From a virus, in IMG/VR virus record IMGVR_UViG_3300025308_000073, positions 1-61,468 of that record: a stretch of 61,468 nt of DNA. One strand, given 5' to 3'. Under the pieces are notes generated by a model. The model saw only the letters and a program-made list of their open reading frames with translations. It did not search any database and was not told where the DNA came from. The position numbers and the translations under genes were made by a program. Shown piece after piece: positions 4,368 to 60,972 of this stretch (the first letter of the stretch is position 1; the number at the start of each line of letters is the position of its first letter).

Positions 4368-5381
4368 TCATCGTGTAGCTCCTGTGTGGTTAAGCATTGC
4401 TTGGTAAGAGCGCAGTGCATCTGTTCTGTCGCGCCCGCCTGATTCATGCTGGCGCAAGCGCTGGTGATACCGACCTCGGATGTAGCGCCCAGCAGATATG
4501 TGCTGCGGCCAGACGACGTAGCCGAGGAATGGAATGCCAGCGCTCGCCGGCGCAAGCCGAATCTTGTGCGGGTGGATAGTCAGGCCGTCATTGGCCAGCT
4601 TGACGGTGATCAGTTCTCGCAGGGTTTGCAGTTCTTCGCGCGATTCACCCAGGATGACTATATCGTCCACGTAGCGGATGTACCGGTGGACGCGCAGCGT
4701 TTCTTTGATCCAGTGGTCGAAGTCGTTCAGGAATATGTTGGCGAATAGCTGGCTGGACAAATTGCCGATGGGCATTCCCTTGGCCGCCGTCTGCCGGTAC
4801 AGCGTGCCAGCATCGAACAAGTGATCGTAGCTGCTATCCGTTTGGAACGAGTCGATCAGGTTGACCAGTAGCACGCGCAGTTCGTGATCTCCGATGTAGC
4901 GCAGCACGCGCTCTTTCAGCAGTGCATGGTTGACTGAGTAGAAATACTTGCTGATGTCGAGCTGCAACATCCAAGTGGCTTTATCGCTGCGGGCGAATTG
5001 CGCCAGCCTACGCACGGCGGCATGGGTGCCGCGACCGGGCAGGTTGCCACAGGTGTCATGGATGAACCTCGGCTGCCAGATTGGTAGCATGTACCGGTAC
5101 AGCATCCAGTGAATGATGCGGTCTTTCATTGGAGCATCCACCACGTCGCGCCACTTCTTCTCGCGCACGGTGAATGTCTTGTACGAGCCGAAGGTATATT
5201 TTCGCTCGCGCAGTCTTTTTTGGATTGTAATCAGGTGCCGCAGCGGATCAGTAGAGAAGCGCTGAATGCGCAGGTTATGCGATTTGTTCTTTCGGGTGTT
5301 AAGCCAGCAAGTGAATAGGTTGGGTAGGCTGGTAAGGTGATGGAAGTCACTGCCGCATTCCACTGCGCCGCCCGTAGGCAT
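4368..5381 (-). CDS. DGR1 reverse transcriptase
   Basis: A 337-residue group-II-intron-like RT of the diversity-generating retroelement type. Motifs: LQLDISKYF with the first catalytic Asp (about 142), KGMPIGNLSSQLFANIF (about 201-217, the DGR-specific SQ motif) and YVDD (237-240); no maturase or RNase H domain. It copies TR RNA with errors at adenines. The frame stays open up to 5642, but that part covers the TR, so a start near ATG 5381 (GGAAAC upstream) is chosen. The exact start is uncertain. It lies immediately downstream of TR1 in the order target A, MSL, TR, RT. Confidence 0.92.
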   Translation of the reverse strand: MPTGGAVECGSDFHHLTSLPNLFTCWLNTRKNKSHNLRIQRFSTDPLRHLITIQKRLRERKYTFGSYKTFTVREKKWRDVVDAPMKDRIIHWMLYRYMLPIWQPRFIHDTCGNLPGRGTHAAVRRLAQFARSDKATWMLQLDISKYFYSVNHALLKERVLRYIGDHELRVLLVNLIDSFQTDSSYDHLFDAGTLYRQTAAKGMPIGNLSSQLFANIFLNDFDHWIKETLRVHRYIRYVDDIVILGESREELQTLRELITVKLANDGLTIHPHKIRLAPASAGIPFLGYVVWPQHISAGRYIRGRYHQRLRQHESGGRDRTDALRSYQAMLNHTGATR

Positions 5382-5500
5382 CGCAGCGGTTTCCGGTTGG
5401 GCATGTTGCCGTGCTTTTGGAACTTGCGCTCCTGGAGATTTTCGACCAAGAGTTAACCTTCCGTGGGTATCCCCAGCGTCTAGGCCGTTTTTTCTTGGGT

Positions 5501-5615
5501 CAGCGGAAGCCGATGTTGTCGTTGCGATTGTCGGGGTTGTCGTTGTTGAGATTGAAGACGCCCGCATGCGAGTCGGAATACCAGTAGCTGCCCCGAATGA
5601 GCGCATTGCCAGACC
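5501..5615 (-). repeat. DGR1 template repeat (TR1)
   Basis: 115 bases aligning without gaps to 6559-6673 (VR-A) and 11505-11619 (VR-B). The coding strand has 26 adenines. VR-A differs at 15 and VR-B at 23 of them; the other 89 positions are unchanged in both. The 3' end GGCTTCCGCTG is shared; just beyond it TR reads ACC where both VRs read CAC, a plausible IMH*/IMH difference. It lies between the MSL and RT genes. The translation is lectin-like (SYWYSDSHAGVFNLNN) but it is not itself a gene. Confidence 0.95.
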
Positions 5616-5638
5616 TTTCAGAAAACCCCCATCGTTGT

Positions 5639-6487
5639 TCATGGCTGCGCTCCTTGTGAGCGAATGAGCCCGCCAACGAGACGACCAAGTTCAACGGCTA
5701 GACCCGCTCTATGCTCAAAGTTGAGCGCGAGCATTCCTAGCCTTTGAGCCTGTGCGAGATAGTGCTTGAGCAAGTCAACATCGGCTGAAATTGATTTAAG
5801 CAGGAGCTGTTTATTGTCCTCAAGGCCGTACGCCATGACGCCGCGCATGATTCGACCGATGCAAGTGCGCATGTTTTCACCATAGGTTGCACGAATATCG
5901 CGAGACATTTTGATGATGTCCTGCATGATCTGCGTGTCCAAGTCTTGCGCTTTAGCCTTGAGTTGAAACGATGCAGAATCAGGGCTGGCTAACAACTGGG
6001 TGGCCGCAGCCTTGTTCACCTCGCCGCGTTGCATGAGATCGTCTATCACATCACAGATGACTTTCGTTGAAACGGATTCCAGTACCGAATTGTTTCCTGT
6101 TGGCTGATTTGAAACATAGACCGTGTGTCCATCCGCCTGATTGCCGAGTGCTACAACGTAGGGGATACCGAAATCTTCAACGACAGACCATAACCGACGC
6201 TTGAAATTGCCAACTGGAAAGCCAATGCGAATATGCGGCTCGGTGGACGCTCCAACGAGCTTGAGCTTATATTTTTTCAGTGTGGCCAGCGCGTATGCCG
6301 TGCGGTCGTAGCCATGGAGGAAATTGCCGGATTGCACCAATATCAAGTGGCCGGCGTGTTTTTCTTCCAGCTTCTGCGCGATGGTCGCCACCGGATCAGC
6401 CTGCCCAAGTCCGGCCTCAATGCCCTTGAAGGCGCTGATGCTGAACTCTCTGAGTTCGTCGCTTGTCGGTGTTGGTATTGCTTGCAT
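5639..6487 (-). CDS. DGR accessory protein: MutS-like domain fused to an Avd-like helical bundle
   Basis: A 282-residue protein. Residues about 40-140 resemble MutS domain I (HLILVQSGNFLHGYDRTAYAL, then GFPVGNFKRRLW and GIPYVVA), the MSL accessory type described for DGRs. Residues about 185-280 form a helical bundle ending FEHRAGLAVELGRLVGGLI, which matches the free Avd of DGR2 (GEHRYLALSRLVDELGRMLGG). Avd-type proteins bind TR RNA and RT and are needed for mutagenic cDNA synthesis. Start ATG 6487 follows CAGGAAC. It sits between target A and TR1. Confidence 0.85.
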   Translation of the reverse strand: MQAIPTPTSDELREFSISAFKGIEAGLGQADPVATIAQKLEEKHAGHLILVQSGNFLHGYDRTAYALATLKKYKLKLVGASTEPHIRIGFPVGNFKRRLWSVVEDFGIPYVVALGNQADGHTVYVSNQPTGNNSVLESVSTKVICDVIDDLMQRGEVNKAAATQLLASPDSASFQLKAKAQDLDTQIMQDIIKMSRDIRATYGENMRTCIGRIMRGVMAYGLEDNKQLLLKSISADVDLLKHYLAQAQRLGMLALNFEHRAGLAVELGRLVGGLIRSQGAQP

Positions 6488-6509
6488 GATGTTCCTGGTT
6501 AATTTTCTA

Positions 6510-6537
6510 GGTCACGGCTACGCCGCGACCCGTGACC
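6510..6537 (-). other. Hairpin downstream of VR-A
   Basis: Stem GGTCACGG / CCGTGACC (8 bp) with a 12-base GC-rich loop, five bases after the target A stop. An identical copy lies after target B (11456-11483) and none follows the TR. In Bordetella phage BPP-1 a hairpin or cruciform just downstream of VR is needed for efficient retrohoming; this is the likely counterpart. It could also act as a weak terminator, but no T run follows. Confidence 0.7.
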
Positions 6538-6542
6538 AGCGA

Positions 6543-7226
6543 TCAGAGACTCTTGGTGCAGCGGAAGCCGAAGTAGTCGCCGCGATTGCCGGGGTTGTCG
6601 TAGTTGAGACTGAAGACGCCCGCACGCGAGCCGGAACACCAGGAGCCGCCCCGAACGAGCGCAAAGCCAGACCAGTTCCGCTCTCCGTCAGGACGCCAGC
6701 CCATTCCCTTTTCTTGGGATGGGTAGGGTGCTGTGGTCAGGCTTGGCGAGTCAGCCTTGATGGTGGTGGTCAATCCCTTGTCGTCTCCCTGGATGTCGTC
6801 GAATACCCACGAAAAAACATTGCCGTTCAAGTCGCAAACCTTCTCTCCGTTTGATAGCGTCAACCAGCGGCGTTCTTTGGCATCTGGCGACTGGAAGTTG
6901 CCTGGCTGCGCGCTGGACACATTGCCTTTGCGTAGGCCACGGAATAGCTTGCCTTCACCGACCTTGCCCTTCGTCCAGTTGCAATCCTGCGCCGCGACGT
7001 TGTGCCGGATCGCCAGTTCTTGAGATTCGGTGATGAGTTTGAACCCAGCCTCTTCGCACGCTATCTTTGCTTCCTCGAAGGTGATGCTCACCCATGGCGC
7101 GCCATCGGCGGTGATGACGGCTTTCCCATCAGCGCCCTTGCTGCAATGAAACTGACCTACCTTGAAAGCGGGGACGACAATGCCGTTCGGCAGTGTCATT
7201 TCTGGGACGGTGATAAATTTGTTCAT
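6543..7226 (-). CDS. DGR1 target protein A (FGE-sulfatase/C-type-lectin fold)
   Basis: A 227-residue protein of the formylglycine-generating-enzyme-like lectin fold used by many DGR targets: ISITFEEAK-type helix near residue 50, LSNGEKVCDLNGNVFSWVFDD about 125-145, GMGWRPDGERNWSGFALVRGG about 175-195 and C-terminal GFRCTKSL. VR-A occupies residues about 185-223. AAGGAG precedes ATG 7226. There is no signal peptide, lipobox or membrane segment. It lies between DUF2303 and the MSL gene in the early operon. The last 301 bases of its region match target B except inside the VR. Its ligand is unknown. Confidence 0.9.
   Translation of the reverse strand: MNKFITVPEMTLPNGIVVPAFKVGQFHCSKGADGKAVITADGAPWVSITFEEAKIACEEAGFKLITESQELAIRHNVAAQDCNWTKGKVGEGKLFRGLRKGNVSSAQPGNFQSPDAKERRWLTLSNGEKVCDLNGNVFSWVFDDIQGDDKGLTTTIKADSPSLTTAPYPSQEKGMGWRPDGERNWSGFALVRGGSWCSGSRAGVFSLNYDNPGNRGDYFGFRCTKSL
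6559..6673 (-). repeat. DGR1 variable repeat A (VR-A)
   Basis: Ungapped 115-base match to TR1 with 15 substitutions, all at template adenines (T on the plus strand). It encodes the surface-loop part of the lectin fold. It ends with the shared GGCTTCCGCTG, followed by CACCAAG, the stop and the hairpin. Confidence 0.95.
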
Positions 7227-7273
7227 ACGTTCTCCTTGATGCCGCCACTAACTCCAAAGTGGCGGCAATTACG

Positions 7274-8110
7274 TTACGCCGCAAATGGCTTGCCATGAAA
7301 CATTGGGAATCCGGTTGCATCCTTGATATTGGCAGTGAGCGTCTTGGCCGCATCTTCCAGCACCTTGTCAGGGCGGTTCAGCTCGTACCAGAAATCAACC
7401 CTCCCCGCCTTGAGCTGATATTTGAGACGCGCTTCAACCATGTAGGCAGTGCCTCCCCAGAATACCGGCACGCCGATCGCGAACTTACTGAATACTTCCA
7501 TGCTTTTTACCGTCTCGGCGTTGCTGTCCTCGACGTATTCCATGCGCACGCCCCCTGATTGAAGGCGAATCGCGCTCTTGATGGTGGAGTCCTGCGCGAT
7601 TTCCAGATTGGTCGCCATCGTGAGCATCGCCGTGCCGGATGGGAAGCCGTCAACTGTTGCTATGTCGCCCATGTTGTCCTCGATCCAGCAGGCGAATTCA
7701 GCTTGGCTAAATCTCTGGCGATCTTTGTTTGTCCAGCGTTGCCACTCTACCGACTTGGCCGGAGCCAGTTTGGCGATGTGATCGCGCCATTGCTGTCCAT
7801 TCACCTCTTCGCTGTGGTCATTGATGATGCCGGTGTATGCAACAAGCCCTTTTTGGTAGTCGGCCTCACACCAAATTGTTGCGCTGGCAAGCGAGCCGTG
7901 GCGCTTGAGGTAGGAAATAAAGCCTTCTGCGTCGGCCAGCGAGACGGACGCCTTCTTGCGGCGCGGCGTTGGTTGCATGTGCCCGGTGTCTTCCAGCTTC
8001 CAGCCTTCCGGCACGGCATTCATGTCGGCGCTGAGCGCGAACGGCTTGCGCGCCTCGCGCGCCACGGTGGCGGCGATGTTTTCTGCTTCTTGCTTGATAG
8101 GGTCGGCCAT
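7274..8110 (-). CDS. DUF2303 (YfdQ-like) phage protein
   Basis: A 278-residue protein of the DUF2303/YfdQ family, found in phage early operons near recombination genes. Recognisable segments are SLADAEGFISYLKRHGS, AYTGIINDH and SQAEFACWIEDNMGDI. Start ATG 8110 follows GGGAGCG and comes one codon after the upstream stop. No enzymatic motif is evident and the role is unknown; co-occurrence with YqaJ-type exonucleases suggests a link to phage DNA metabolism. Confidence 0.85.
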   Translation of the reverse strand: MADPIKQEAENIAATVAREARKPFALSADMNAVPEGWKLEDTGHMQPTPRRKKASVSLADAEGFISYLKRHGSLASATIWCEADYQKGLVAYTGIINDHSEEVNGQQWRDHIAKLAPAKSVEWQRWTNKDRQRFSQAEFACWIEDNMGDIATVDGFPSGTAMLTMATNLEIAQDSTIKSAIRLQSGGVRMEYVEDSNAETVKSMEVFSKFAIGVPVFWGGTAYMVEARLKYQLKAGRVDFWYELNRPDKVLEDAAKTLTANIKDATGFPMFHGKPFAA

Positions 8111-8112
8111 GA

Positions 8113-8451
8113 TTATTTCGCTCCCACTTGTTTGAGTTCTGACGGGGTTTGTGCAGCAACGGCCTTAAGTTCCAGCTTTTGCTGCCTTGGATCTTCGGTC
8201 AGAAGATTGCCTTCCGGTGTGGCGAACATCAGCGTTGCGTCAGGTGCCTCCATCGGTTTGCTCATCTTGATGTCGCCAACTACGGCCATAGCCGCTTTGG
8301 TGGATTTCTTGATGGCGATGGTCAGGGTGATCTTCCCGGCCTTGCCGGTGGAATCAACAGCTGCGACGAGTTCTGCCAGTTTTTCGCCTGCTTCGTCGAG
8401 AAACGTGCCGCCCATCAGGTGCCGAAGTGTTTCGTGGATTGGTTTTGCCAT
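8113..8451 (-). CDS. Conserved phage hypothetical protein
   Basis: A 112-residue protein (MAKPIHETLRHLMGGTFLDEAGEKL at the start, then a beta-rich part with KITLTIAIKKSTKAAM). This gene type commonly precedes DUF2303 in phages. AAGGAG precedes ATG 8451. No recognised domain, no signal peptide. Confidence 0.75.
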   Translation of the reverse strand: MAKPIHETLRHLMGGTFLDEAGEKLAELVAAVDSTGKAGKITLTIAIKKSTKAAMAVVGDIKMSKPMEAPDATLMFATPEGNLLTEDPRQQKLELKAVAAQTPSELKQVGAK

Positions 8452-8486
8452 GATGCTTTGCTCCTTTTGTGAGTTGAAAAAAATTA

Positions 8487-8729
8487 CTATGCGTCCAGCT
8501 TGGTAAATTTGTGCGCGCCCTTGATATGCTTACCCAGGTGAGAGCCAGCCGATTCAGCGTCACGCATGGCGTTAAACTTTTCTTGAGGCACGTCGTGGTA
8601 GTGGTACACGCCGCCACTGTGAAATTTCACTGCCATTGTCTTGCTGGTTGGGTCGTATCCGATCGAGTGAACCTGACTCGACGTCTTGACCGGGTTCAGG
8701 GTTATTTTGATTGGGCTTTGTTTTTTCAT
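8487..8729 (-). CDS. KTSC-domain protein
   Basis: An 80-residue small protein of the KTSC family: VKTSSQVHSIGYDPTSKTM, then VKFHSGGVYHYHDVP and AESAGSHLGKHIKG. The family is named after a KTSC motif (here KTSS) and is frequent in phages next to recombination genes; it may bind nucleic acid. Start ATG 8729 overlaps the exonuclease stop and has GGAAGG upstream. Confidence 0.85.
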   Translation of the reverse strand: MKKQSPIKITLNPVKTSSQVHSIGYDPTSKTMAVKFHSGGVYHYHDVPQEKFNAMRDAESAGSHLGKHIKGAHKFTKLDA

Positions 8730-10354
8730 GCTGCCTTCCTTTCTTCGTGCTGAATGTCGCCACGGAACTCTTGCAGAATCCAGTCGAGCATCATTTCTTC
8801 CGGCAGCCCGAAGTTCTCTGAAAGCACTTCGAGTATTTCTGCGCGGCTGGCGCGTGTGCGAGTTGCCGGACTGAATCCCGCGACAACGGTTTTCGCGCCA
8901 GACAGTTTTACCGGCTGCGCCTGTGCGGCCAATTGCGCTTGCTTGCGGCGTTCTTCGACGGCGGCGGCTTCCGATTCGGCGCGCGCCTTGGCCTCTTCCT
9001 CGGCTTGCATTGCCGCGCGCTGTGCTTCGAGCCGTGCTGATTCATCCGCTTTTTGCTTCTCGATGCGGCTGGTGATGGTCAAGGTGAAGTCTTCCATCGG
9101 CTTCACCATCAAAGCCTGCAAATCCGGGAATAGCGCACCGTAACCGACTGCGTTTTCCTTGCACCAGGCCAGCTTGGCGCAAACGTCCTTGGTTTGCGTA
9201 TCGGCGGCAATCTTCACCCCAGCAAGCATGGTTTGGATAGCATCGTGCATGCTGGCGTAGTTGCGCTTGCCCTTGATCGCCTCGGCAAAGTTGGGCGGAG
9301 CCAGCGTTATGCGGATCGGCTTGATTTCCGCTTCCAGCGCGGTGATGTGGTCGGCGTAGGCTTGCCTGCCTTCGAGCACCATTACTTCCTTCTTGGCCTT
9401 ATCCTCGCGCTCCACATCCTTTTCGAGCTGCAGGGCGGTGCCGTTCAGGTCTTTCACCCATGCGTCCATCTTGCGCGCGGCCTCACCGATGGTTTCGGTT
9501 TGCGCCAGCATTGCTTCCTTGGATAGCGCAATGGCCTTGGCCGTCTCGCGGAACTTTTTGGCCGCTTCCTTGGCGTTGGAAAAATCCTGATCCGTCACAA
9601 GCGCGATGGCGCGCACTTCGGCGAGTTTGGCGGTCAGCGCCACACCGAAGGCTTCCATGTTGTGTTCGGTTATCTCGCCCCTGGCGTGAACAAAGAGGGC
9701 GGGCAGTTCGATGCACACTTCGGCCTTGGGCTTTTCGGTGTGCTCGATGTGAACGTAGTTCTCGCGGTCTTTGTTGAACTGTACCCAGCCAGACAGAATG
9801 CGCTCGAACCAAACCGGATCAGGCATCACTTCCATGCTGACCATGTTTTCCTCTGTGCCGTCCGATACCGTGAAAATCCACTTTTCCGCGCCAGTGACAA
9901 GCAAAGCCTGTTGAACCTGCGGCATGTGGGTATCAGGCAATTCATAGCGAGCCACTGCGGAAGCAAGCTCCTTATTCCATTGCTTGTGCTCCCAGCCGAT
10001 AGTTCCGTCCATCGTAATCCCATCGCAGGACGCAGACGGGCGACCGCGCGAACAGATAAGCGGGAACAGTCGAATTCCGAATTGCTTTGCGACTATAGGC
10101 CGCGCCAGAGCTTCAACTTCGTGGCCGTAGTCCAGAATGTTCTTTTGCACCCAATCGCAGAATTCCTTGGCGATGCCGGACGATTTCATGCGCAGCAGTT
10201 CTGTGCGTGTCGTGGTTTTTGACAGGCCGAGCATTGCAGCGGCTTCGCTTGATCCGTCATGCTCAAGACGGAAATCCAGCCATTCCTGAGTACCCTGAAT
10301 AAGCTCATGCTCGACAAGTGGGTTTTCTTGGAGCCATTGCTGTACGTCGCTCAT
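8726..10354 (-). CDS. YqaJ-family (lambda-exonuclease-like) recombination nuclease with C-terminal extension
   Basis: A 542-residue protein. Residues 1-210 form the YqaJ/lambda-Exo fold: GTQEWLDFRLEHDGSSEAAAMLG, the helix with GHEVEALARPIV, then the catalytic CDG...GWEHKQW (Asp, Glu-x-Lys) and HMPQVQQALLVTGAEKW. It would resect dsDNA 5'-3' for single-strand annealing. The remainder is long, charged and coiled-coil-like with an Ala/Glu-rich stretch near 440-480. ATG 10354 follows the stop of the upstream gene within one base. It acts with the upstream protein and SSB. Confidence 0.88.
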   Translation of the reverse strand: MSDVQQWLQENPLVEHELIQGTQEWLDFRLEHDGSSEAAAMLGLSKTTTRTELLRMKSSGIAKEFCDWVQKNILDYGHEVEALARPIVAKQFGIRLFPLICSRGRPSASCDGITMDGTIGWEHKQWNKELASAVARYELPDTHMPQVQQALLVTGAEKWIFTVSDGTEENMVSMEVMPDPVWFERILSGWVQFNKDRENYVHIEHTEKPKAEVCIELPALFVHARGEITEHNMEAFGVALTAKLAEVRAIALVTDQDFSNAKEAAKKFRETAKAIALSKEAMLAQTETIGEAARKMDAWVKDLNGTALQLEKDVEREDKAKKEVMVLEGRQAYADHITALEAEIKPIRITLAPPNFAEAIKGKRNYASMHDAIQTMLAGVKIAADTQTKDVCAKLAWCKENAVGYGALFPDLQALMVKPMEDFTLTITSRIEKQKADESARLEAQRAAMQAEEEAKARAESEAAAVEERRKQAQLAAQAQPVKLSGAKTVVAGFSPATRTRASRAEILEVLSENFGLPEEMMLDWILQEFRGDIQHEERKAA

Positions 10355-10355
10355 G

Positions 10356-11423
10356 TTATTCACCGTTCCCTTCCTGCTGCCATGAGTCGATGGTCAGCTT
10401 TTGATCTTCAGTAAGGATCATCGCGCTGGACAACGTGGTGATGACCTTCTTGGCCTTGAGTTTGCCGCTGCGTACTTGGCTTTCGTATTCCTTCGCCAGT
10501 TCGGCGAATTGGTCGGCGGTGCATTCCTTGATTCCAGGCTTGCTGGATGGCGGCTTGCCCGCGTCTCCGTTCACGCCGTTATCAGTCTTGTTCTGCATCG
10601 CAGTCGCCCAGGTTGCCTCACCATCCTTGATCGCGCCATAGATGCCGCGCAGCGTGACGATCTGCGCCGGAGAGCACTTCTCAAGTCCGTGCCCGAGATA
10701 GCCAGTCAGATCGGTGGCGCTCACGCCTATGGCCGCGAAAGCGTCCACGATCTTCTTGCGCTCTGCATCTGGGTCTTTCGCGGCATCGTCCAAGCGAATT
10801 TTCTTGATGATCTCTTCCGCTTCATCGCACAGATCGCCAGGGATGATGCGCAGGCCAAGCGAGCGCATTGCCTTTGAGATTAGGGCCCCGCGCTTATTGA
10901 GCAGGTCATCGTCAGTACCGAGTACGGTGTAAACGTCCTTGTTGTAGCTGTTTTTGCGCACGCTGATGTAGGAGCCGTCGCTATTTGGCTTGCTGCGTTC
11001 AACGGTTTTTGACACGCGTACGTCAAGCGGGTAGGTGATATTTGCTTCCAGGTCGGTGACTGATACGCGGTGAACTTCCTTTTGCTCATCCTCGAAGATC
11101 ATGGTGGTTTCTACCAGCACGTTCTTCATGCAGCGCAGGGCGACTTCCACAAAGCGGATGCCCAAACCTTCAACACCTTGGCCGATAGGCTTGATGTAAT
11201 AGGCGCTCTTGTTATTTGCGAAGCTCGGGCGGCGGCATTCTTTGAGCAGTTCTTGGCGTACCGAATCCATGTTGCGCGGATTGCGCATTGCCATGATGTA
11301 GCGCGATTCGACCATTGCTTTTGACTGTGCCGCGATTGCCGTTGATGCGGTTTCGACAACCGCCATAGTCCTGCCTGTTCCGCCAAAATCTTCTTGTGTT
11401 ACCAGTGCTGTTCTGTCGTTCAT
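10356..11423 (-). CDS. Putative phage single-strand annealing / recombination protein
   Basis: A 355-residue protein directly upstream of the YqaJ-type nuclease. It contains ESRYIMAMRNPRNMD, KSAYYIKPIGQGVEGLGIRFVE and ALISKAMRSLGLRIIPGD, the style of phage proteins that take the RecT/Bet/Erf place in recombination cassettes. The C-terminal 60 residues are charged. CAGGAG precedes ATG 11423. The annealing role is inferred from position and general resemblance; no catalytic motif is expected in such proteins. Confidence 0.65.
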   Translation of the reverse strand: MNDRTALVTQEDFGGTGRTMAVVETASTAIAAQSKAMVESRYIMAMRNPRNMDSVRQELLKECRRPSFANNKSAYYIKPIGQGVEGLGIRFVEVALRCMKNVLVETTMIFEDEQKEVHRVSVTDLEANITYPLDVRVSKTVERSKPNSDGSYISVRKNSYNKDVYTVLGTDDDLLNKRGALISKAMRSLGLRIIPGDLCDEAEEIIKKIRLDDAAKDPDAERKKIVDAFAAIGVSATDLTGYLGHGLEKCSPAQIVTLRGIYGAIKDGEATWATAMQNKTDNGVNGDAGKPPSSKPGIKECTADQFAELAKEYESQVRSGKLKAKKVITTLSSAMILTEDQKLTIDSWQQEGNGE

Positions 11424-11455
11424 GGTGTGCTCCTGTTGTGTTTATATTTAGCGAA

Positions 11456-11483
11456 GGTCACGGCTACGCCGCGACCCGTGACC
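11456..11483 (-). other. Hairpin downstream of VR-B
   Basis: Identical to the 28-base hairpin after VR-A (8-bp stem GGTCACGG / CCGTGACC, 12-base loop), five bases after the target B stop. Perfect conservation in two places 4.9 kb apart, and absence after the TR, point to a role in target recognition by DGR1. Confidence 0.7.
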
Positions 11484-11488
11484 AGCGA

Positions 11489-12397
11489 TCAGAGACTCTT
11501 GGTGCAGCGGAAGCCGATGCTGACGCCGCGACGGTCGGGGCCGCCGCCGCCGAGACCGAAGACGCCCGCACGCGAGCCGGAACACCAGCAGCCGCCCCGA
11601 ACGAGCGCACCGCCAGACCAGTTCCGCTCTCCGTCAGGACGCCAGCCCATTCCCTTTTCTTGGGATGGGTAGGGTGCTGTGGTCAGGCTTGGCGAGTCAG
11701 CCTTGATGGTGGTGGTCAATCCCTTGTCGTCTCCCTGGATGTCGTCGAATACCCATGTGTAGCAATTACCGGCGAAGTCATAGATGCGCTCACCGTTGGA
11801 GAGCTGGTGCCAGCGGCGCTCTTCTGCATCGTCGGATTCGTAGGTTCCTTCCTGCGCTTCACTGACGTTTTCTTTGTGGATTCCTTGGAAAATCTTGCCT
11901 TCGCCGACCTTTCCGCCAGTCCAGTTGATGTCTTGCTGGCTGATGTCGTATGCAATCGCCAGCGCGCGGGTTTCAGCGAGAAGGTCGTAACCAGCAACGG
12001 CGCACGCCTTACGCGCCTCGTCGTAGTTGATCTCAACCCAAGGCATTGCGTCAGCGACCGACTGTGGAATTCCTGCTAGGCCGCGTGATGCGATGTACTG
12101 AGCAACTTGGAAGGACGGAACCACTTTGCCGCTGGGCAGCGTTACTTCCGGCACTGTGATGAAAACGCTGCTTGCCTTAACCGTTGCAGCCACTTTTGCG
12201 CGCAGCTCGGAAGCCAGCAGAGGGTATTCAGCCGTGCACGATTCTGCGTATGCCGCAATGGCTGGCATGGTGTGCTTGTCAGTAGTGAGATTGAGTACGA
12301 AGTATTCATCGCCAAAGTGCTTACCGCCTGGCGCATCTGTTCCGTCGGTGCGCGTGACATTGAATTTGTTGTAGATGCCTTGTTCGCGTTGGTTCAT
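11489..12397 (-). CDS. DGR1 target protein B (phage N-terminal domain plus FGE/C-type-lectin domain)
   Basis: A 302-residue protein. Residues 1-70 (YNKFNVTRTDGTDAPGGKHFG, YFVLNLTTDKHTMPAIAAYAE) resemble a small stand-alone phage early protein. Residues about 78-302 are a lectin/FGE domain homologous to target A, with LSNGERIYDFAGNCYTWVFDD and C-terminal GFRCTKSL. VR-B is at about 260-298; its template adenines are so heavily substituted that the loop reads GLGGGGPDRRG. AGGAG precedes ATG 12397. No signal peptide or membrane anchor. It lies upstream of the annealing-protein gene, 5 kb from TR1. Confidence 0.9.
   Translation of the reverse strand: MNQREQGIYNKFNVTRTDGTDAPGGKHFGDEYFVLNLTTDKHTMPAIAAYAESCTAEYPLLASELRAKVAATVKASSVFITVPEVTLPSGKVVPSFQVAQYIASRGLAGIPQSVADAMPWVEINYDEARKACAVAGYDLLAETRALAIAYDISQQDINWTGGKVGEGKIFQGIHKENVSEAQEGTYESDDAEERRWHQLSNGERIYDFAGNCYTWVFDDIQGDDKGLTTTIKADSPSLTTAPYPSQEKGMGWRPDGERNWSGGALVRGGCWCSGSRAGVFGLGGGGPDRRGVSIGFRCTKSL
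11505..11619 (-). repeat. DGR1 variable repeat B (VR-B)
   Basis: Ungapped 115-base match to TR1 with 23 substitutions, all at the 26 template adenines; 89 non-adenine positions are unchanged. It is more diverged than VR-A, consistent with more rounds or an independent retrohoming event. Confidence 0.95.
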
Positions 12398-31644: not shown

Positions 31645-33870
31645 ATGTCATGGTACAAGTCGGGCACGGTATCGGTAACGAATGGCTCTGCCTCGGTAGT
31701 TGGTGTCGATACGCTGTGGGCAACCCAGGCGGCGGCGGGCGACATGTTCACGTTGGACGGTTCAATATTCTACGAGGTGCTGTCCGTCACCGATAACACG
31801 CACCTGGCGCTTGCCAGCATTTATGCCGGGACAACGCTTTCCGCGCAGGCATACGCGATCATCCGTAATTTCACCAGCACGACCAATGCGCAGTTGGCAT
31901 TGAATCTGGCCGACATGATTAACAAGTGGCACCTGTCGCTGGACGAGCTGCTGACATGGCTGACATCGCTTGGTTCTGTAACTTTGACTAATCCGGCAAC
32001 CGGATCGGCTGTTTCTGTTAAAACGCCATCGCAGATTCAGGCTGAGTGGATCGGAGCACTATCAAAGGCAATCACCACGGCGGATGTGGCGCTGACTACG
32101 ACTGAAGCCAGCAATGCTTTCATCAAAGCGACCGGTGCGCTGACCGGCAACCGATCAATGACAGTGCCTGCAGCACAAGGGCATCTGATCGCATTCGAGA
32201 ATGCCACGAGCGGCGCTTACACGCTGACGGTCAAAACCCCGGCTGGTACTGGCGTGGTGGTAGGGCAAAACGAACGGGCGTTGCTGTTTTGCGATGGCAC
32301 GAATGTAGTTAATGCGTTTACCTCTGCTCCAGGCATAAATGCTGCTGATGTGGCGAATACTCCATCAGGGAATGTTACAGCAACTAACATGCAGGCGGCT
32401 GTAAACGAGTTGGATGCAGAAAAGGCAAAATTGGCTGGCGATGCCGCACAGGATTTCTCTGCAAAGAACCTGACTTCCACTGGAAATGCCACTCTCGGCG
32501 ATTCTGCCGCCGACATGCACATTGTCAACGGGCCGATGGTATTCAATCATGGGTTTGTTATTGGGAGTCAGTCTGTAACGGTGAGCAATATCGGCACTCC
32601 CGGCGCAGCCGGATTCGGCGTTGGCATCTGCCCGTCCGCGCCTGCCGGGATGTATCCGTTGAGCAACGGCACATTCAGCCCGTTCGACGACGACTACGGC
32701 AATTACATCTACTCCGATGGCAGCATCATGGTGTGGATTCCGGCGTTTTATTACAAATATGGAACAGGCGCGAATGGGCTGGCGGTGAACGTCGTGGACA
32801 TCAAGCCGCTCGGGTATTTCGTGACGGCCGCGAATTCGCCGTTCAAGAGCGCAGCATTATTTGCGGACGAGGTGACCGCCGCGAACGCCGCTGGCTATGC
32901 GCTGCATCGCGCATTCTATGACGGCGGTGCGCTGCAATATGGCGTGTTCGTGGATAAATACAAATGCTCGAATAATGGCGGCACGGCGTCCAGTATCAGG
33001 ATCGGCAATCCACTCTCCAGCGCCGCCGCCAACAATCCATTCAGCGGGCTGACCGGAGCGCCCGCCAATGCTTACTACGGCGCAATCGCTGCCGCCAAGA
33101 CGCGGGGGGCGAGCTTCTTCCCTTCCAGCCTGTTCATCCGCTCCGCGCTGGCGCTGCTGGCGCTGGCACACGCACAAGCCTCAACCGCAGCGACCTGGTG
33201 CGCCTGGTACAACGCGACCTACAACTTCCCCAAGGGCTGCAACAACAACGCGCTGGGCGACGCGCAGGATAGCGCGCTGACATTCACCTCCGCCGGCAAT
33301 GCGACCTACCCGACGGCGAACAAGACCGGCAGCGCCAATGTGCTGGCGAAAACTACGCACAACGGGCAGGCCTGCGGGGTGGCGGACGTGAACGGCACGA
33401 TATGGGAAGTTTGCCTCGGGCTGACCTCGAACGGCACAAATATCTACATCCTGAAAACGTCCGCCGCGATGAAGGATATTACGTCCGGAAACACACTGGC
33501 GACAGACGCTTGGGGTGCGACCGGCATCGCCGCGCTCTATGACGATCTCGGCACGACGCATGGCGCGCTATGGGCGACAGGCGCAAGTCGTGTTGTCTAT
33601 TTTGGCGCGGCCACTCAGGTGTTCGATGCGGCAACCAGCGGCAACGCATGGAACGCGGCGGGCGCTGGCGTGCCGCTGGCAGGTGGGGTCGGCGGAACCA
33701 ATGCATTCGGTAATGACGGCCTGTGGGACTACAAGCCCAATGAGATGTGCCCGCTCGCCGCCGGCGCCTGGAGCAACTCGTCGAATGCCGGGGTGTGGGC
33801 GTTGAATCTCTGCAATGCGCGGGGCGGCTCGTACAGCGACGTGGGGTTGCGCGCGGCCTTGTATCTCTGA
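31645..33870 (+). CDS. DGR2 target: tail fibre / receptor-binding protein
   Basis: A 741-residue protein. The N-terminal 120 residues look like a virion-attachment module (GTVSVTNGSASVVGVDTLWATQAAAGDMFTLDG), the centre is beta-rich with a GALTGNRSMTVPAAQG stretch, and residues about 300-741 form a lectin/FGE-like C-terminal domain (WCAWYNATYNFPKGCNNNALGD, CGVADVNGTIWEVCLGL). The extreme C-terminus is VR-C (about 701-737, WSNSSNAGVWALNLC...). AAGGAG precedes ATG 31645. Diversification here would change host-receptor binding, as Mtd does in BPP-1. Confidence 0.9.
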   Translation: MSWYKSGTVSVTNGSASVVGVDTLWATQAAAGDMFTLDGSIFYEVLSVTDNTHLALASIYAGTTLSAQAYAIIRNFTSTTNAQLALNLADMINKWHLSLDELLTWLTSLGSVTLTNPATGSAVSVKTPSQIQAEWIGALSKAITTADVALTTTEASNAFIKATGALTGNRSMTVPAAQGHLIAFENATSGAYTLTVKTPAGTGVVVGQNERALLFCDGTNVVNAFTSAPGINAADVANTPSGNVTATNMQAAVNELDAEKAKLAGDAAQDFSAKNLTSTGNATLGDSAADMHIVNGPMVFNHGFVIGSQSVTVSNIGTPGAAGFGVGICPSAPAGMYPLSNGTFSPFDDDYGNYIYSDGSIMVWIPAFYYKYGTGANGLAVNVVDIKPLGYFVTAANSPFKSAALFADEVTAANAAGYALHRAFYDGGALQYGVFVDKYKCSNNGGTASSIRIGNPLSSAAANNPFSGLTGAPANAYYGAIAAAKTRGASFFPSSLFIRSALALLALAHAQASTAATWCAWYNATYNFPKGCNNNALGDAQDSALTFTSAGNATYPTANKTGSANVLAKTTHNGQACGVADVNGTIWEVCLGLTSNGTNIYILKTSAAMKDITSGNTLATDAWGATGIAALYDDLGTTHGALWATGASRVVYFGAATQVFDAATSGNAWNAAGAGVPLAGGVGGTNAFGNDGLWDYKPNEMCPLAAGAWSNSSNAGVWALNLCNARGGSYSDVGLRAALYL
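33745..33856 (+). repeat. DGR2 variable repeat (VR-C)
   Basis: 112 bases ungapped to TR2 (34300-34411) with 11 substitutions, all at TR2 adenines (24 available); the other 88 positions are unchanged. The 3' end GTGGGGTTGCGCGCGG is identical in both and then diverges, marking the start of mutagenic homology. Confidence 0.95.
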
Positions 33871-33887
33871 TGGCCTGAGCGATAGCG

Positions 33888-34298
33888 ATGGGCCTACACG
33901 ATGAAGCGAAGCTGGATCAAAAGTTCACGGAGTTTGCAAAGCTGATGAATATCCACCTCAATCACTTTCCGCGCCACGAGAAGTATGGCCTCGCCCTGGA
34001 GATCAGGCGCGCGGCCTATGAGGTCTATGGCTATATCGTCGAGGCGCAAAAGCGCTATCACAAGAAAACCACGCTTACCAACCTTGATGTACGCCACGAG
34101 CAGCTGCGCATGCTGATCCGACTGGCGCACTCGCTCGGCTATTTTGAGTTCAAGGATGGTAAGCGCGCAGATAAATCACCCGCCGCACTGGGAGAGCATC
34201 GCTATCTCGCCCTGTCCCGGTTGGTGGATGAATTGGGCAGGATGCTGGGCGGCTGGATAGTCGCCGATCGCCTGCTCGATAAACGGGAGGCGCCTTAA
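33888..34298 (+). CDS. avd: DGR2 accessory variability determinant (Avd)
   Basis: A 136-residue four-helix-bundle protein: KFTEFAKLMNIHLNHFPRHEKYGLALEIRRAAYEVYGYIVEAQ, TLTNLDVRHEQLRMLIRLAHSLGYF and GEHRYLALSRLVDELGRMLGGWIVADRL. Avd forms a basic pentameric barrel that binds the RT and TR RNA and is essential for retrohoming in BPP-1. It lies between target and TR, the classic order. No strong Shine-Dalgarno is seen before ATG 33888. Confidence 0.92.
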   Translation: MGLHDEAKLDQKFTEFAKLMNIHLNHFPRHEKYGLALEIRRAAYEVYGYIVEAQKRYHKKTTLTNLDVRHEQLRMLIRLAHSLGYFEFKDGKRADKSPAALGEHRYLALSRLVDELGRMLGGWIVADRLLDKREAP

Positions 34299-34299
34299 C

Positions 34300-34411
34300 A
34301 TGTGCCCGATCGCCGCCGGCAACTGGAACAACTCGTCGAATGCCGGGGTGTGGGCGTTGAATCTCAACAATGCGCGGGGCAACTCGAACAACAACGTGGG
34401 GTTGCGCGCGG
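34300..34411 (+). repeat. DGR2 template repeat (TR2)
   Basis: 112 bases with 24 adenines, beginning just after the avd stop. The translation (AGNWNNSSNAGVWALNLNN) is full of AAC codons, the codon type that adenine mutagenesis diversifies without creating stops. About 140 bases separate it from the RT start, comparable with the spacer RNA that BPP-1 needs for cDNA priming. Confidence 0.95.
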
Positions 34412-34550
34412 ACTCGAAGCCTCAAAGACCGCAGCTTGGTCAAAGTGGAATCAAGGGAGGCGCTTTCCGGCGCGTGGCGCAAGCCACGGCGAAATCGGCC
34501 GGCTTCCGCCTTTCTGGTAGGGCGGCATGCCGTCTCGAAGGTCGGGCGAT

Positions 34551-35573
34551 ATGAAGCGCATCGGACATCTATACGAGCAGGCTTTTACCCGCGAGGCGTT
34601 GCTGATCGCATTTCACGCGGCAGCGCGCCATAAGCATGGAAAGCGCGCTTGCTTCAACTTCGAAAAGAGCTTGGCCAGCAACCTCGACGCATTACATCGC
34701 GAGCTGACTGACGGAAGTTACCAGCCGCGCCCGTATTACAGCTTCATGGTGCATGAGCCAAAGCCGCGCCGCATCTATGCGCCAGCATTCCGAGACCTGG
34801 TGGTGCAGCACGCCATCTATCGCGTGATCTCGCCTATTTTTGAACCCGGTTTTATCGCACAATCATTCGCCTGTCGCGTCGGCTATGGGACACACAAGGC
34901 GGCAGACTACGCGCAAAGCGCGCTACAGCGCATCCCGCGCGACAGCTACACACTCAAGCTGGATATTCGCAAATTCTTCTATCGCATCGACAGGTCGATT
35001 CTGCGCCAACAGATCGAGCGCAAGATCAAGGATGCGCGCTTTATCGAGATGATGATGCAATTCGCCGACCACGGCGAACCGCAAGGCATCCCCATCGGAA
35101 ATCTGCTGAGCCAGCTCTATGCGCTGATCTATCTAAACCCGCTGGATCACTATATCAAGCGCGAGCTGGGCATCAAGCACTACTGCCGCTACGTCGATGA
35201 CTTCGTGCTGTTCGGCATCAGCCGCGAACGCGCTGTCGAGTGCCAGCGCTTGATCGTTGATTTTATCCGGCGCGAGCTGAGCCTTGAGCTATCCAAGTCA
35301 ACCATCGCACCTATGGCGCGCGGCATCAACTTCGTCGGGTATCGCACCTGGGCGAGCCGCCGCTTCATTCGCCGTCATAGCCTTGGCAACTACCGCATAG
35401 CCATGTGCCGCGGCGAGATTGAATCCGCCGCATCTATTCTCGGCCATGCGCGCCGCACTCATTCTTTGCAGCACATGCTGCGCTTTTCAAGGGAGCACCA
35501 CCATGACCACCATCGTTGCCTACCAAAAATATATCGACTCGCTAATTACGCGCGAACTGCTGCTGCCGGTTGA
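34551..35573 (+). CDS. DGR2 reverse transcriptase
   Basis: A 340-residue DGR RT: MKRIGHLYEQAF start, EPKPRRIYAPAFRDLVVQHAIYR, LKLDIRKFFYRID with the first catalytic Asp (about 138), GIPIGNLLSQLYALIYL (motif 4 with SQ, about 179-195), YVDD (214-217) and GINFVGYRTW. It is distinct in sequence from RT1 (different motif context and accessory protein), so the two DGRs are not recent duplicates. ATG 34551 is chosen for the family-typical MKRIGxLxE start. Confidence 0.94.
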   Translation: MKRIGHLYEQAFTREALLIAFHAAARHKHGKRACFNFEKSLASNLDALHRELTDGSYQPRPYYSFMVHEPKPRRIYAPAFRDLVVQHAIYRVISPIFEPGFIAQSFACRVGYGTHKAADYAQSALQRIPRDSYTLKLDIRKFFYRIDRSILRQQIERKIKDARFIEMMMQFADHGEPQGIPIGNLLSQLYALIYLNPLDHYIKRELGIKHYCRYVDDFVLFGISRERAVECQRLIVDFIRRELSLELSKSTIAPMARGINFVGYRTWASRRFIRRHSLGNYRIAMCRGEIESAASILGHARRTHSLQHMLRFSREHHHDHHRCLPKIYRLANYARTAAAG

Positions 35574-43930: not shown

Positions 43931-45148
43931 ATGGAACTTGATTGGGGTGCATTTGGTGCAGCAGCGCGCGGTGAGAATGTTGGCGAATTCAAGCGCGGCC
44001 GGTCTGAGGAAGAGCGCAGGAAGAAGGAAGAGGAACGTCAAGATACAGAGCGCAAGCAGTACGAAGAGATCATTAAGTCTACGCATGGAGAATTTAAGGA
44101 GGGATTGAAAGCCGCCGGCGGCGCGGCTATGCCGATGCAGGATGCGTATGGAGCCGAGCCAGCTACGCCAGCGTCGGCGAACTCCATTGTCGCGCAAGGT
44201 ATTGTGCGCCCCGCTGCCGCGACAAAAGAGCCGACCTACCGCGAGCCGGACATCAATGACAAGTTTAACTACTCGGACAAGCTGTACGGAAGGCTCATAG
44301 AGGCCGGGCTGTTCGACAAGGCAAAGGAGGTCGGTCAATTCCGTTCCGGGCTGCTGGGCGAGAAGTTGCAGGCTGAGACAAAAGCACGGGAAGATGCTGT
44401 CCGTGGCGGCGTGGCCGCAATCAAATCAAGGAACCCTAAAGCAATTCTTGCTGCACTTCAAAGTGTTTCGCAGTTTGTCCCTGACGGCAATGATGTGACT
44501 GATGTGCAGATGTCAGGCGACGGCAAATATCAAATCACTTACGGCGACAACCCGCCGATAGCAATGGACGAGGGGCAGCTTACCTCATCGATTTTGGGTG
44601 CCGGTAAGGTGGAGACTATTCTGGACTACGATCACCGTCTGCAACAAACCGCATTTCAAAAAGCGCAGGAAGAGCGGCAAACGAAAAAGGATGAACGCGA
44701 CGCGACGCATCAAACCGACACGCTTGCCGAAACCAAGCGCAACCACATCGCCACCGAGGGTATCGCGCGAACCAAGGCGGTAGAAGGATCGGAAGCCACG
44801 ACCGCCGAGATTAAGAACGCGCGAGTATTTTTCCCGGAACTGTATGCAAAGAAACCGGCGGATGCTCTTTCTGCATTCAAGGATTTAACGAATGGGGAAA
44901 AGGACGCATCTGCCGTTCGCATGAAGCTGAACGCAATCTACTCTGACAGCATGAAGGGCGGATGGCCGAAAGAGGCTGGTAAATCTCAACAAGAGCGAGA
45001 TGTCTTCCTTGAAAAGCGGGTGAATTATTTTATGGGGAAAGCTGATGCGCAATCCTTTCCGCCACCAGAAAAACGCGAGATCGGCAAAGCATACCAAACC
45101 CCGAAAGGAATGATGATCTGGCGCGGCAATGGATGGAGCGCTAACTAA
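43931..45148 (+). CDS. Putative internal virion (ejection) protein
   Basis: A 405-residue charged helical protein (EEERRKKEEERQDTERKQYEE coiled coil near the start, QERDVFLEKRVNYFMGKA near the end, terminating in PKGMMIWRGNGWSAN). It directly precedes and abuts the giant polyvalent gene by one base, a pairing typical of proteins ejected with DNA in podovirus-like phages. Assignment is positional. Confidence 0.65.
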   Translation: MELDWGAFGAAARGENVGEFKRGRSEEERRKKEEERQDTERKQYEEIIKSTHGEFKEGLKAAGGAAMPMQDAYGAEPATPASANSIVAQGIVRPAAATKEPTYREPDINDKFNYSDKLYGRLIEAGLFDKAKEVGQFRSGLLGEKLQAETKAREDAVRGGVAAIKSRNPKAILAALQSVSQFVPDGNDVTDVQMSGDGKYQITYGDNPPIAMDEGQLTSSILGAGKVETILDYDHRLQQTAFQKAQEERQTKKDERDATHQTDTLAETKRNHIATEGIARTKAVEGSEATTAEIKNARVFFPELYAKKPADALSAFKDLTNGEKDASAVRMKLNAIYSDSMKGGWPKEAGKSQQERDVFLEKRVNYFMGKADAQSFPPPEKREIGKAYQTPKGMMIWRGNGWSAN

Positions 45149-48100
45149 TGGGTAAGCTGCTATCAGATGATGAGGTGTTTGGCACAGGCGCCGCACCGGC
45201 GCTAATGTCGGATGAGGAGGTGTTTGGCGGTGCTGTTGCAAACGAATCCGAACCACCCAAGCGCGGCTTCATAGGCAGCATGGCATCGCTTGCCAAAGAT
45301 GGCATTGATTCAGCAATCACTTCTGCGCGGCTTTCCGGCGATGTCGCAACCGGCAACTTTGATGAGAACGCGCCAAAGCTGATAGCTGGCTCATTGAACG
45401 TCGATCAATCTGGCAAGCCGCAAGAATTCAAGGAAGTTGCCGAATCATTCGCCCCGGCGCAGCAAGCCAAGGTGGCCGCAGGCGATTGGAGTGAACCGCT
45501 GGATAACGTGGGCGCTGTCGGGCAGATGTTATGGAACGTCGGCAAGCAGGCCGTCACCAACCCGAAAGGCTTGGCATACCTCACCGCTTCGCAGATCGCC
45601 AATATGGCTCCGTCCATTGCCGGAATGATGGCTGGCGCAAAGGGTGGTGCTGCCCTAGGCGCTGTTGCCGCACCGGTTACTGGGGGAGCCTCTATTCCGG
45701 TTGGCGCTCTGGTCGGCGGGTTGGCGGGTGGGTTTTCTGGTGAATGGCCGATGGAAGCCGGATCGGAATTTATCGGGATAATCGGCAAGGAATTGTCCAC
45801 GCGCAACCTTGCGCCAAACGAGCAGAATGTGGCGGCATTGCTGGCCGACAAGGGCTTCATGGAGACTGCGGTATCGCAGGCTAGAACCAAGGCGACCGTC
45901 ACATCTGGCATTGATTCTGCCATGACGTTGGGCGCTGGCCGTTTGGTTGGTGCGCCAGGGCGTGCCGCAGAGAGGGCTGCGCGCGTAGAGTTGGGCGCCG
46001 CCGCTACCGGCGCAGAGATAGCCAAGCGGGCTGGCGAGATCGTAGCGTCTCGCTCCATGCTGCAAAAGACCGGGAACGTCTCAAGGGCTGTTGGTCTTGA
46101 TGTCGCTGGCGGCGGACTATCGGAAGCTGGTGGGCAAGTGGCCGCTTATGGCGAGGCCGATTATGCCGACGTTGGCATGGAAATGCTGGGTGAGCTTGGT
46201 GGCGCAGGAATAGAATTGCCGAGTGCGGCATGGGCGGCTGGCAAGGGTATTGTCAGGCCAGCACCCACTCCTGACGCCAAGCAACCACCACCGCCAGCCC
46301 GACCCGGCTCGCTCACCAGCGCTGCGAACATCGCCGCACAGCAAGGCATCACGCCCACGCCCGTTCCCACGGAAGCAATCGACGCAGCCGAACTACTCGG
46401 AACACCAGACGATACCGCACCGCCACTAGCCGAGGCCGCTCAAGCTCCATTGGCGGAACCCGCTTCAATGAGCATTCTCGATGAAGTAACGAATGGCGCA
46501 ACTTCTCGACCTATCTCCACCACGCTGGATACTGGAAGCGCGACAGGCGCAAGCGATAACACCGCAGGAAGCGATACAAATGGCGTTCTTCAACATGATG
46601 CTGCAACGGGAGCCGGAAGGCTTGGAATGCCCGGAACCGCTGTGGAGGATAATGGAGCGGGTGGAGTTCAGTCGAATGGAAGTAACCAGCCGCGTCATGT
46701 AGGGCATCCGTCCGAAGTTGTGCTGCCGGACAACAGCGCATTGCCTGCGCAGTGGGAGGTGGTTGACGCAGATCAAGTCACGGCCACGCTCAAGGAAGGC
46801 AAGAACCAGCCGCGCGATCGGAGCCGTGCCGCAGCGAATGCCCAGGTGCAGGGTATCGCCAATATGCCGGACTATCGCCGCCTGGCCGATTCTCCCGTCA
46901 TGGACGTTGGCGCCCCGACACTTTCGCAAGATGGCGCAATCGTCGGCGGAAATGGCCGCTTTGAGGGCGTGAGCCGGGCATACGACCAAGGCACTGCCGC
47001 CGAGTACCGCGCGCACCTGGAGGCCGATGCAGCCGCAAAGGGGATCGACCCTGCGACATTCTCCGGCATGAACAAGCCGGTGCTGGTGCGCCGCATCACC
47101 CAGCCGTTTGACACCCGCGCGCTGGCCGTAGCATCCAATTCCGGCGGCAGCTTGCAGTATTCGGCGCTGGAACAAGCTAAGATCGACGGCGAGCGCATGA
47201 ATAGCCTGGGCGACATCGAGGTGAACGACACCGGCGACGTGGTGATGAGCGGCGGCAACATGGCGAACGTGCGCCGCGCGCTGACCGGCTACAACGCCGC
47301 CGAGATGGGCTCGATGACCGATAAGGACGGCTTGCTGTCGCAAGAGGGCATCCGGCGCATCAAGAACGCGCTGCTCTATAAAGCCTACGGCAACAGCTCC
47401 GTGCTGTCGCGCCTGGTGGAGTCTGCCGATCCAGACCTTAAATCAGTGATGGGCGCATTGGTGCGCTCCGCCGGATCGGTGGCCAGCGTGCGCGCCGACA
47501 TGAAGGATGGCAACAAGCCGGCAGATGCCGACATCGCCGAAGACCTGCTTTCAGGCGTCGAGCTTCTTAGCAAGATCAAGGCGCAAGGCTCGTCTGTCGA
47601 GCAGTACATGGCGCAAGATGCGATGTTCGGCAAGGAATACACCAAAGAAGCCGCGGCGATTACACGCTACCTGAGCGATAATATCCGCTCGCAGAAACGC
47701 ATGGCGGAATACATCAAGTCGTACTATGATGGTATCGCCAATGAGGATCATTTAACCGGCAGCATGTTCGAGACTGCGCCGGCATCGAAGAAAGAGAGGC
47801 TTGACCATGCCGCACGACAAGCAGCCGCCGGATCAGCAACAGAGCAAAGACCCACTGAGCGAGGAAGAGAAACAACAACTCCTGTCGTTCATGCACAAGA
47901 TCAACACCAATCCGAAAATGCGCAACGCGCTACTGTACGCGATGGAGCAGTCCAGCAAGATACCGGAGTAACCGGAGACGGCACCAAGGCCGCGCCCATC
48001 AAGGTCGAGCATCACGACCATATCAAGCAGGCCGAACAGCGCGTCAACACCAACCCGACAGACGCACAAAAGAAAAATGGCAATTACGCCATGGGGCATG

Positions 48101-59829: not shown

Positions 59830-60810
59830 TTAATCCAGCCGCCCGGCCATATCCGCAGCGCTCTCGTTGTAATAGACCATGAGCTGCTTTAGATCGCGGT
59901 GGCCGACCATGCGCGCCAGCGCCAGCACGTCCAACTTGCGCGCCAGCCGCGTGATCGCGGCATGCCTCAAGTCGTGGAACGTCAGTCCATCGATCTCTGC
60001 CATCTTCTTCGCCTTACGGAAGTTCGAGTCGATCTGCGCGGTGGACAAATTAAACACCGCGCTTTCGGTTCCCATCTGCCGCAGCAGCCGGATCGCCTCT
60101 GTGGATATCGGGACATCGCGCTCCGCTGCATCAGTCTTGCCGCTCTCAACGTGCAGGTAGCGCTTTTGAATGTGAACATTCTTCCAGTCGAGCGCGGCAA
60201 TTTCCCCGGCGCGCATGGCTGTTTCAATAGCGAACAGCATGGCCGCCCCCACCCTGGCGCCCACCGACTTCGGCATCACATTTGCGTTATATCCAAGCGC
60301 CACGGATAGCAGCTCAATTTCATTCGGCGTTGCGATCCTGTCCCTTGCCTTGCCGTGTGCCGGCACCTTTACGCCGCGCATCGGGTGTTCTTTCAGCCAG
60401 TGCCATTCATTGATGGCAGTGGAGCAGGCAGACGACAGCAGCACCCATTCCCGGCGCACACTGGCCGAAGTCACAGATTCAAGCCGCCTATCCCGCCACG
60501 ATGCGAAATCGGGCTGCTTGAGTTCGGCTAGTTTCACCTTGGCTATCTTGTCCCGCATGATAAGGTTGATGCGCAGGCGCTCCCAGCGCTCTCCCTTCTT
60601 GGTTGGCGATACCTCGTCGCGGTATTTTTCAAGAAGCTGCCCAAAGGTTTTGTTGGGAATGTCACCATGTTTTCCTGCTATGATGTCGGCCTCTACTTGT
60701 GCTGCCCAGGCCTGCGCCGCCGTCTTGGTCGGGTGTGTTTCGGATTGAACAACGCCTAACTTGCGCACGATTGCACGCCACGAGTCGCCGCGTTTTTGGA
60801 AGGTGGCCAT
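59830..60810 (-). CDS. Tyrosine integrase B (of the prophage)
   Basis: A 326-residue tyrosine recombinase paralogous to integrase A: MATFQKRGDSWRAIVRK start, core-binding domain, then AMRAGEI (Arg), FHDLRHAAITRLARK (His-x-x-Arg), MVGHRDLKQL (His) and LMVYYNES (Tyr). It starts 162 bases from the att core in tRNA-Leu and ends directly against the giant gene. ATG 60810 matches the integrase A start; a 68-codon upstream extension would run across the terminator and towards the att core. It integrates and, with an Xis, excises the prophage. Confidence 0.95.
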   Translation of the reverse strand: MATFQKRGDSWRAIVRKLGVVQSETHPTKTAAQAWAAQVEADIIAGKHGDIPNKTFGQLLEKYRDEVSPTKKGERWERLRINLIMRDKIAKVKLAELKQPDFASWRDRRLESVTSASVRREWVLLSSACSTAINEWHWLKEHPMRGVKVPAHGKARDRIATPNEIELLSVALGYNANVMPKSVGARVGAAMLFAIETAMRAGEIAALDWKNVHIQKRYLHVESGKTDAAERDVPISTEAIRLLRQMGTESAVFNLSTAQIDSNFRKAKKMAEIDGLTFHDLRHAAITRLARKLDVLALARMVGHRDLKQLMVYYNESAADMAGRLD

Positions 60811-60915
60811 TTTGAGTTTGGTACAGTTGTGGTGCAAAAATGGTACACCAAAAACCGGCAGTAAGCGAGAAAGCCCGTTAAAACGTGGTTTGATGTGGTA
60901 CAAAAAAGCCAACAA
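60811..60915. repeat. Possible integrase B arm-type repeats
   Basis: Repeats of TGGTACA/TGGTGCA occur near 60819, 60830, 60839 and 60895 between integrase B and the terminator. They differ from the TTGTCGC repeats beside integrase A, so the two integrases may share the core but not the arm specificity. Function inferred. Confidence 0.4.
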
Positions 60916-60917
60916 AA

Positions 60918-60945: not shown

Positions 60946-60972
60946 GATTACGGGGTTTTTAGACTGTTGTTG

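Follow-up and report, generated by a model that had tools for sequence, protein, structure and literature searches.

The window analyzed here, a complete IMG/VR virus record of 61,468 bases, almost certainly carries a diversity-generating retroelement (DGR1) in which one template repeat, TR1, serves two target genes, T1 and T2. This reading comes from what is visible in the sequence itself: divergence of the variable repeats (VRs) only at template adenines, the anatomy of the cassette (Table 1), and non-A template changes that have passed into VRs. The record also encodes a P22-like portal, a Phage_capsid_3 head protein, and a terminase.

In the proposed mechanism, the reverse transcriptase RT1, probably with its Avd-like partner, would reverse transcribe the TR1 transcript, erring opposite adenines. 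With the shared 3' end (IMH) and the hairpin behind the VR as guides, the TR1 cDNA would then take the place of VR-A in T1 or VR-B in T2, at the 3' end of the gene, and each replacement would rewrite a patch of an FGE-family protein. Transcription, cDNA synthesis, and homing are presumed for DGR1 by analogy with BPP-1 and other DGRs.

Table 1. Coordinates of the two retroelements and their associated features in the window
Feature	Positions	Strand	Evidence or remark
RT1, DGR-type reverse transcriptase	4368-5381	-	Pfam RVT_1 4e-27; PHROG reverse transcriptase 3e-100
Spacer between TR1 and RT1	5382-5500	-	19-genome alignment
TR1, template repeat	5501-5615	-	Ungapped three-way alignment; repeat extends to 5493
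Avd-like accessory protein, 282 aa, extra N-terminal domain	5639-6487	-	PHROG, NCBIfam, and Pfam profile matches
Cassette of T1 in common with T2	6509-6808	-	Copies differ solely at 18 template-A VR sites
Hairpin 3' of VR-A, 9-bp stem, GTA loop	6510-6530	-	Same form in 27 lineage flanks
T1, first target, 227 aa	6543-7226	-	Pfam FGE-sulfatase 5e-7
VR-A, at T1 3' end	6559-6673	-	Ungapped alignment to TR1
Cassette of T2 in common with T1	11455-11754	-	Sequence comparison of T1 and T2
Hairpin 3' of VR-B	11456-11476	-	Same form in 27 lineage flanks
T2, second target, 302 aa	11489-12397	-	Pfam FGE-sulfatase 8e-6; PHROG 9572 1e-42
VR-B, at T2 3' end	11505-11619	-	Ungapped alignment to TR1
DGR2, complete second DGR	31645-35573	+	12 changes, each at template A
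DGR2 tail fiber target	31645-33870	+	
VR2	33745-33859	+	Within tail fiber target
DGR2 Avd	33888-34298	+	
TR2	34300-34414	+	
RT2	34527-35573	+	

Adenine-confined divergence of the repeats

The coding strand of DGR1 is the minus strand, on which a template A corresponds to a T of the plus strand. A preliminary description of this DNA had claimed that both VRs diverge from TR1 exclusively at adenines, and our realignment agrees in full: the 115 bases align without gaps, and 38 of 38 changes (15 in VR-A and 23 in VR-B) fall on the 26 template adenines. A recount by template base gave zero substitutions at template C, G, or T in either VR, and the 89 non-A positions hold the same base in all three repeats. 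The probability that chance placed the changes on adenines is 3e-12 for VR-A and 3e-21 for VR-B (hypergeometric). VR-A alone is changed at 3 template-A sites and VR-B alone at 11; at 8 sites both acquired the identical new base, at 4 they acquired differing bases, and none is intact in both. The 8 identical changes were considered as a sign of common VR descent but are not counted as evidence for it, given that about 7.5 are expected from base makeup alone. The repeat continues for 8 bases past the alignment (to 5493, 6551, and 11497), and within this extension CTGACC in the TR is replaced by CTGCAC in the VRs, an IMH*/IMH-type difference found in every relative holding both. The interpretation originally given to the pattern, mutagenic retrohoming from TR1 to two VRs, is likewise upheld by the combination of A-only changes, an adjoining DGR-type RT and Avd-like gene, an IMH-type 3' end, and a hairpin, and by a like pattern in 18 genomes.

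The proposal that the two targets differ in saturation fared less well. The counts stand (15/26 versus 23/26) but do not establish a systematic difference, as the spread over 32 related VRs is near binomial. The changed fraction across these VRs averages 0.62 (standard deviation, 0.11; range, 0.38 to 0.88), with no significant heterogeneity (P = 0.088). Fisher's test on VR-A and VR-B gives a P value of 0.027 for a pair picked post hoc, and VR-B, the extreme of the 32, has a probability of 0.0027 of at least 23 changes when treated as a single VR, uncorrected for 32. Saturation need not build up, moreover, because each homing event restarts from an intact template, and ratios between VRs are known to vary widely (PMC3521204). 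VR-B does stand out by base makeup: 21 of its 23 changes are A to G (Fisher P = 1.8e-4 versus the pool, a post hoc choice), and these G-rich changes create a glycine run in the encoded protein.

The relatives comprise viral contigs L007 to L012, L028, and L029 and the betaproteobacterial genomes L032 to L044 (Gallionella, Duganella, Thauera, and others). A scan of genome contigs with the RT had led to Betaproteobacteria, and the phage host is probably a betaproteobacterium. Among 32 TR/VR pairs from 18 genomes, 500 of 810 template adenines are changed versus 4 of 2,855 other bases, a low non-A count that is partly built in, as the search for pairs outside the window tolerated no more than 2 non-A mismatches in 70 bases; this bias concerns the pairs of the relatives, not TR1, VR-A, and VR-B. 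Within a genome, non-A polymorphisms of the TR reappear in the VRs (CATT/CATC/CATA; GGTAAT; and TCTGAC in the first VR of L007), and each lineage therefore records a flow of information from TR to VR. Such flow would lend indirect support to RT-dependent mutagenic homing.

Several related loci are incomplete or altered. L030 and L031 have about 1 kb in common, differing at 2 sites outside the VR and at 13 inside it, of which 12 lie at an A of the nearest known template. These near-identical stretches (L030, 2103-3181; L031, 5067-6145) contain T1 and codons 1 to 43 of the Avd-like gene and then run, through the same junction, into a virion-type gene on the opposite strand; TR and RT are missing there. 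Their VRs may have diverged before this loss, been swapped by recombination, or been served in trans. In the first half of the L011 TR (7873-7987), several adenines have given way to G, which VRs of other genomes also carry there, possibly through VR-to-TR transfer or point mutation. L005 (1544-6845) holds a T1-like target with a template-pattern VR and, 4.5 kb away, just the last 27 residues of RT1; it is possibly a decayed or rearranged DGR.

Anatomy of the cassette

In the direction of transcription, the minus strand carries T2 with VR-B, a gene at 10356-11423, a RecE-like gene, a DUF2303 gene, T1 with VR-A, the Avd-like gene, TR1, the spacer, and RT1. RT1, for which the start at 5381 is an inferred one in a reading frame that stays open further upstream, contains IGNLSSQ and YVDD, consistent with the (I/V/L)GxxxSQ and YxDD signature by which RTs of the DGR clade are marked (PMC3521204). 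The spacer contains three blocks conserved in the alignment of 19 genomes, TTGGTCGA, TCTCC.GG, and AAAGCACG, and by analogy with BPP-1 it probably belongs to the template RNA.

The accessory protein was recognized by Avd-family matches over its C-terminal half: PHROG Avd at 1e-7 (residues 173 to 278) and NCBIfam Avd at 8e-7. Pfam bAvd matched at 8e-4; this match and that of NCBIfam fall below the curated family cutoffs. Its N-terminal half is collinear with residues 11 to 62 of E. coli MutS in a weak alignment (hhalign E = 0.086), and this domain is possibly MutS-like; a Pfam search gave no match to MutS domain I (PF01624). A MutS-like (MSL) DGR accessory protein is mentioned in the literature (PMC10053308), and a possible likeness of the N-terminal half to MutS domain I may connect the two; unlike MSL, the candidate MutS-like part in DGR1 is fused to an Avd-like part. 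A PDB profile search with the Avd-like protein returned no useful match, its AlphaFold2 model (mean pLDDT, 48) was too poor for a fold search, and it had zero matches among 50,697 phage records and none in a scan of genome contigs.

Behind each VR lies the hairpin GGTCGCGGC-GTA-GCCGTGACC. In the 27 flanks of the lineage, it starts 28 to 38 bases past the VR, the stem pairs vary, and the loops are GTA, GTAA, and similar. Efficient homing in BPP-1 depends on a comparable hairpin, whose loop is a 4-base GRNA (PMC3240598).

Elsewhere in the record, two integrases with about 58% mutual identity are encoded on the same strand near the record ends (797-1861 and 59830-61014), perhaps reflecting adjacent prophages or a duplicated integrase. 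Adjoining the virion genes on the plus strand is a very long open frame of 4,893 aa (45148-59829).

A second retroelement and its error context

Like DGR1, DGR2 of the same phage is complete and has all of its changes at template A; it differs in having a tail fiber target, a separate short Avd, and a different error context. RT2 is 30% identical to RT1, and the RT of the DGR2 lineage shares 37.5% identity with Brt of BPP-1, versus 32% for RT1. A second RT is also encoded in the records of L007, L010, and L011 (G002, G005, and G006, respectively).

The difference in error context concerns A-to-C changes. In the DGR1 lineage, these occur at 65 of 276 adenines before A and at only 3 of 338 (0.9%) before C, whereas the 62 loci of the DGR2 lineage show them at 163 of 588 adenines before C (27.7%). 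At least one A-to-C change before C is found in 62/62 DGR2-lineage loci versus 3/18 DGR1 genomes (P = 1e-13, uncorrected for relatedness). A shortage of this change unique to DGR1 was considered and rejected, as 54 loci of other DGRs outside the DGR2 lineage are low too (29/752 sites); by this comparison of sequences, the BPP-1-like lineage is the one that deviates.

We lean, with modest confidence, toward the view that the polymerases of DGR1 and DGR2 follow different lineage-specific misincorporation contexts and that the AAC rule of BPP-1 would not be general. A serious contender, which we rate somewhat short of probable, is that selection on target folds and codon positions produced the contrast under the same enzymology. 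Natural VRs are filtered by selection, and in DGR1 nearly every adenine followed by C occupies a second codon position, which leaves context nearly confounded with codon position. With the comparison restricted to first codon positions, however, A-to-C changes still make up 63 of 227 changed sites before A versus 3 of 35 otherwise (P = 0.012), and the 27.7% of the DGR2 lineage is close to the 26.8% for A to C before C in unselected BPP-1 cDNA (PMC12875486), both of which argue for an enzymatic difference.

Target genes, cassette exchange, and known systems

T1 and T2 each carry a VR at the 3' end and match Pfam FGE-sulfatase above the cutoff, which points to the C-type-lectin/FGE-like fold of DGR targets. 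PDB profiles gave a weak match to formylglycine-generating enzymes (E = 0.002), and the AlphaFold2 model of T2 (mean pLDDT, 39) was too poor to confirm the fold. T1 had zero matches among 50,697 phage records. By analogy with BPP-1 and other DGRs, both targets are presumably binding proteins; they sit in a recombination region, outside the tail genes. The N-terminal domain of T2 (residues 5 to 73) also turns up in L042 (12184-12390; 52% identical), at a site away from the targets and perhaps as a separate protein.

T1 and T2 share a 300-base cassette whose copies differ at 18 positions, each a template-A site of the VR, while upstream of it the genes are only about 60% alike. The non-A VR sites and the 185 flanking bases (135 on the 5' side and 50 on the 3' side) show 0 differences, and the VRs have therefore diverged after the last cassette exchange. 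This contrast bears on the notion that DGR1 is dead, with past activity having left the present VR states as relics. The window gives a single genome state only, which would suit that notion, but the RT1 frame is open with both motifs intact, the parts are retained in all relatives, and divergence is limited to the A sites; we consider a dead element quite unlikely.

Both flanks are absent from the TR, and ordinary recombination between the targets is therefore their likely source; such recombination followed by renewed VR diversification appears to be the best account of the identical flanks. The flank shared by these two genes in L011 is a version of its own: over the 60-odd bases that immediately precede the VR, its two copies show 0 differences from each other and about six from the version in the window. 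In L007, sharing between the targets is confined to the 3' side. If DGR homing tracts reached past the VR, no ordinary recombination would be needed, and two observations fit: in the window and in L011, homogenization is located immediately around the VR, and over 45 bases the 3' flanks are more alike within genomes (0.76) than between them (0.40). Yet TR cDNA is unable to carry flanks that are not in the TR, and the 5' flank in L007 is not common to both targets; we regard extended homing tracts as very unlikely. An origin that needs no reverse transcription, either ordinary gene duplication plus point mutations or segmental gene conversion fed by silent copies, is hardly credible: T1 and T2 are paralogous, and their common cassette indicates that recombination between them does occur, but the changes are confined to 26 template-A sites with 0/89 elsewhere, no further silent copies were found within the record, and a DGR-type RT adjoins the TR.

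DGRs as such are already known, and DGR1 is a further member. Among its closest known counterparts is the DGR of Bordetella phage BPP-1 (mtd, avd, and brt), which has the same order of target, Avd, TR, and RT on a single strand, adenine-only changes, an IMH/IMH* difference, and a hairpin behind the VR; BPP-1 also has P22-like head genes, as this phage does. Unlike BPP-1, DGR1 has two targets, placed among recombination genes rather than tail genes, and an Avd-like protein with an extra N-terminal domain. Its lineage has hairpin loops of 3 to 4 nucleotides, mostly GTA or GTAA rather than GRNA, and its A-to-C changes are nearly absent before C; RT1 is 32% identical to Brt. DGRs with multiple VRs make up 28.6% of nonredundant DGRs, most with a single TR (PMC6642488). 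DGR1 resembles these in using one template for several target genes, but its two targets also have exchanged flanks in common, and a second TR/RT set, unrelated to the first, is present in the phage. What is unusual in DGR1 is thus the location of its targets in a recombination region, the extra-domain Avd-like protein, the exchanged cassettes, and a partner DGR with another error signature.

The locus is a clean case of one template serving two nontail targets in a phage with a tail fiber DGR as well, and cassettes can be exchanged between target genes while their VRs remain distinct. If the difference in error context is enzymatic, two polymerases with one genome and one deoxynucleoside triphosphate pool in common would indicate that the RT complex sets the mutational spectrum, and related RTs would amount to differing mutational palettes for protein evolution.
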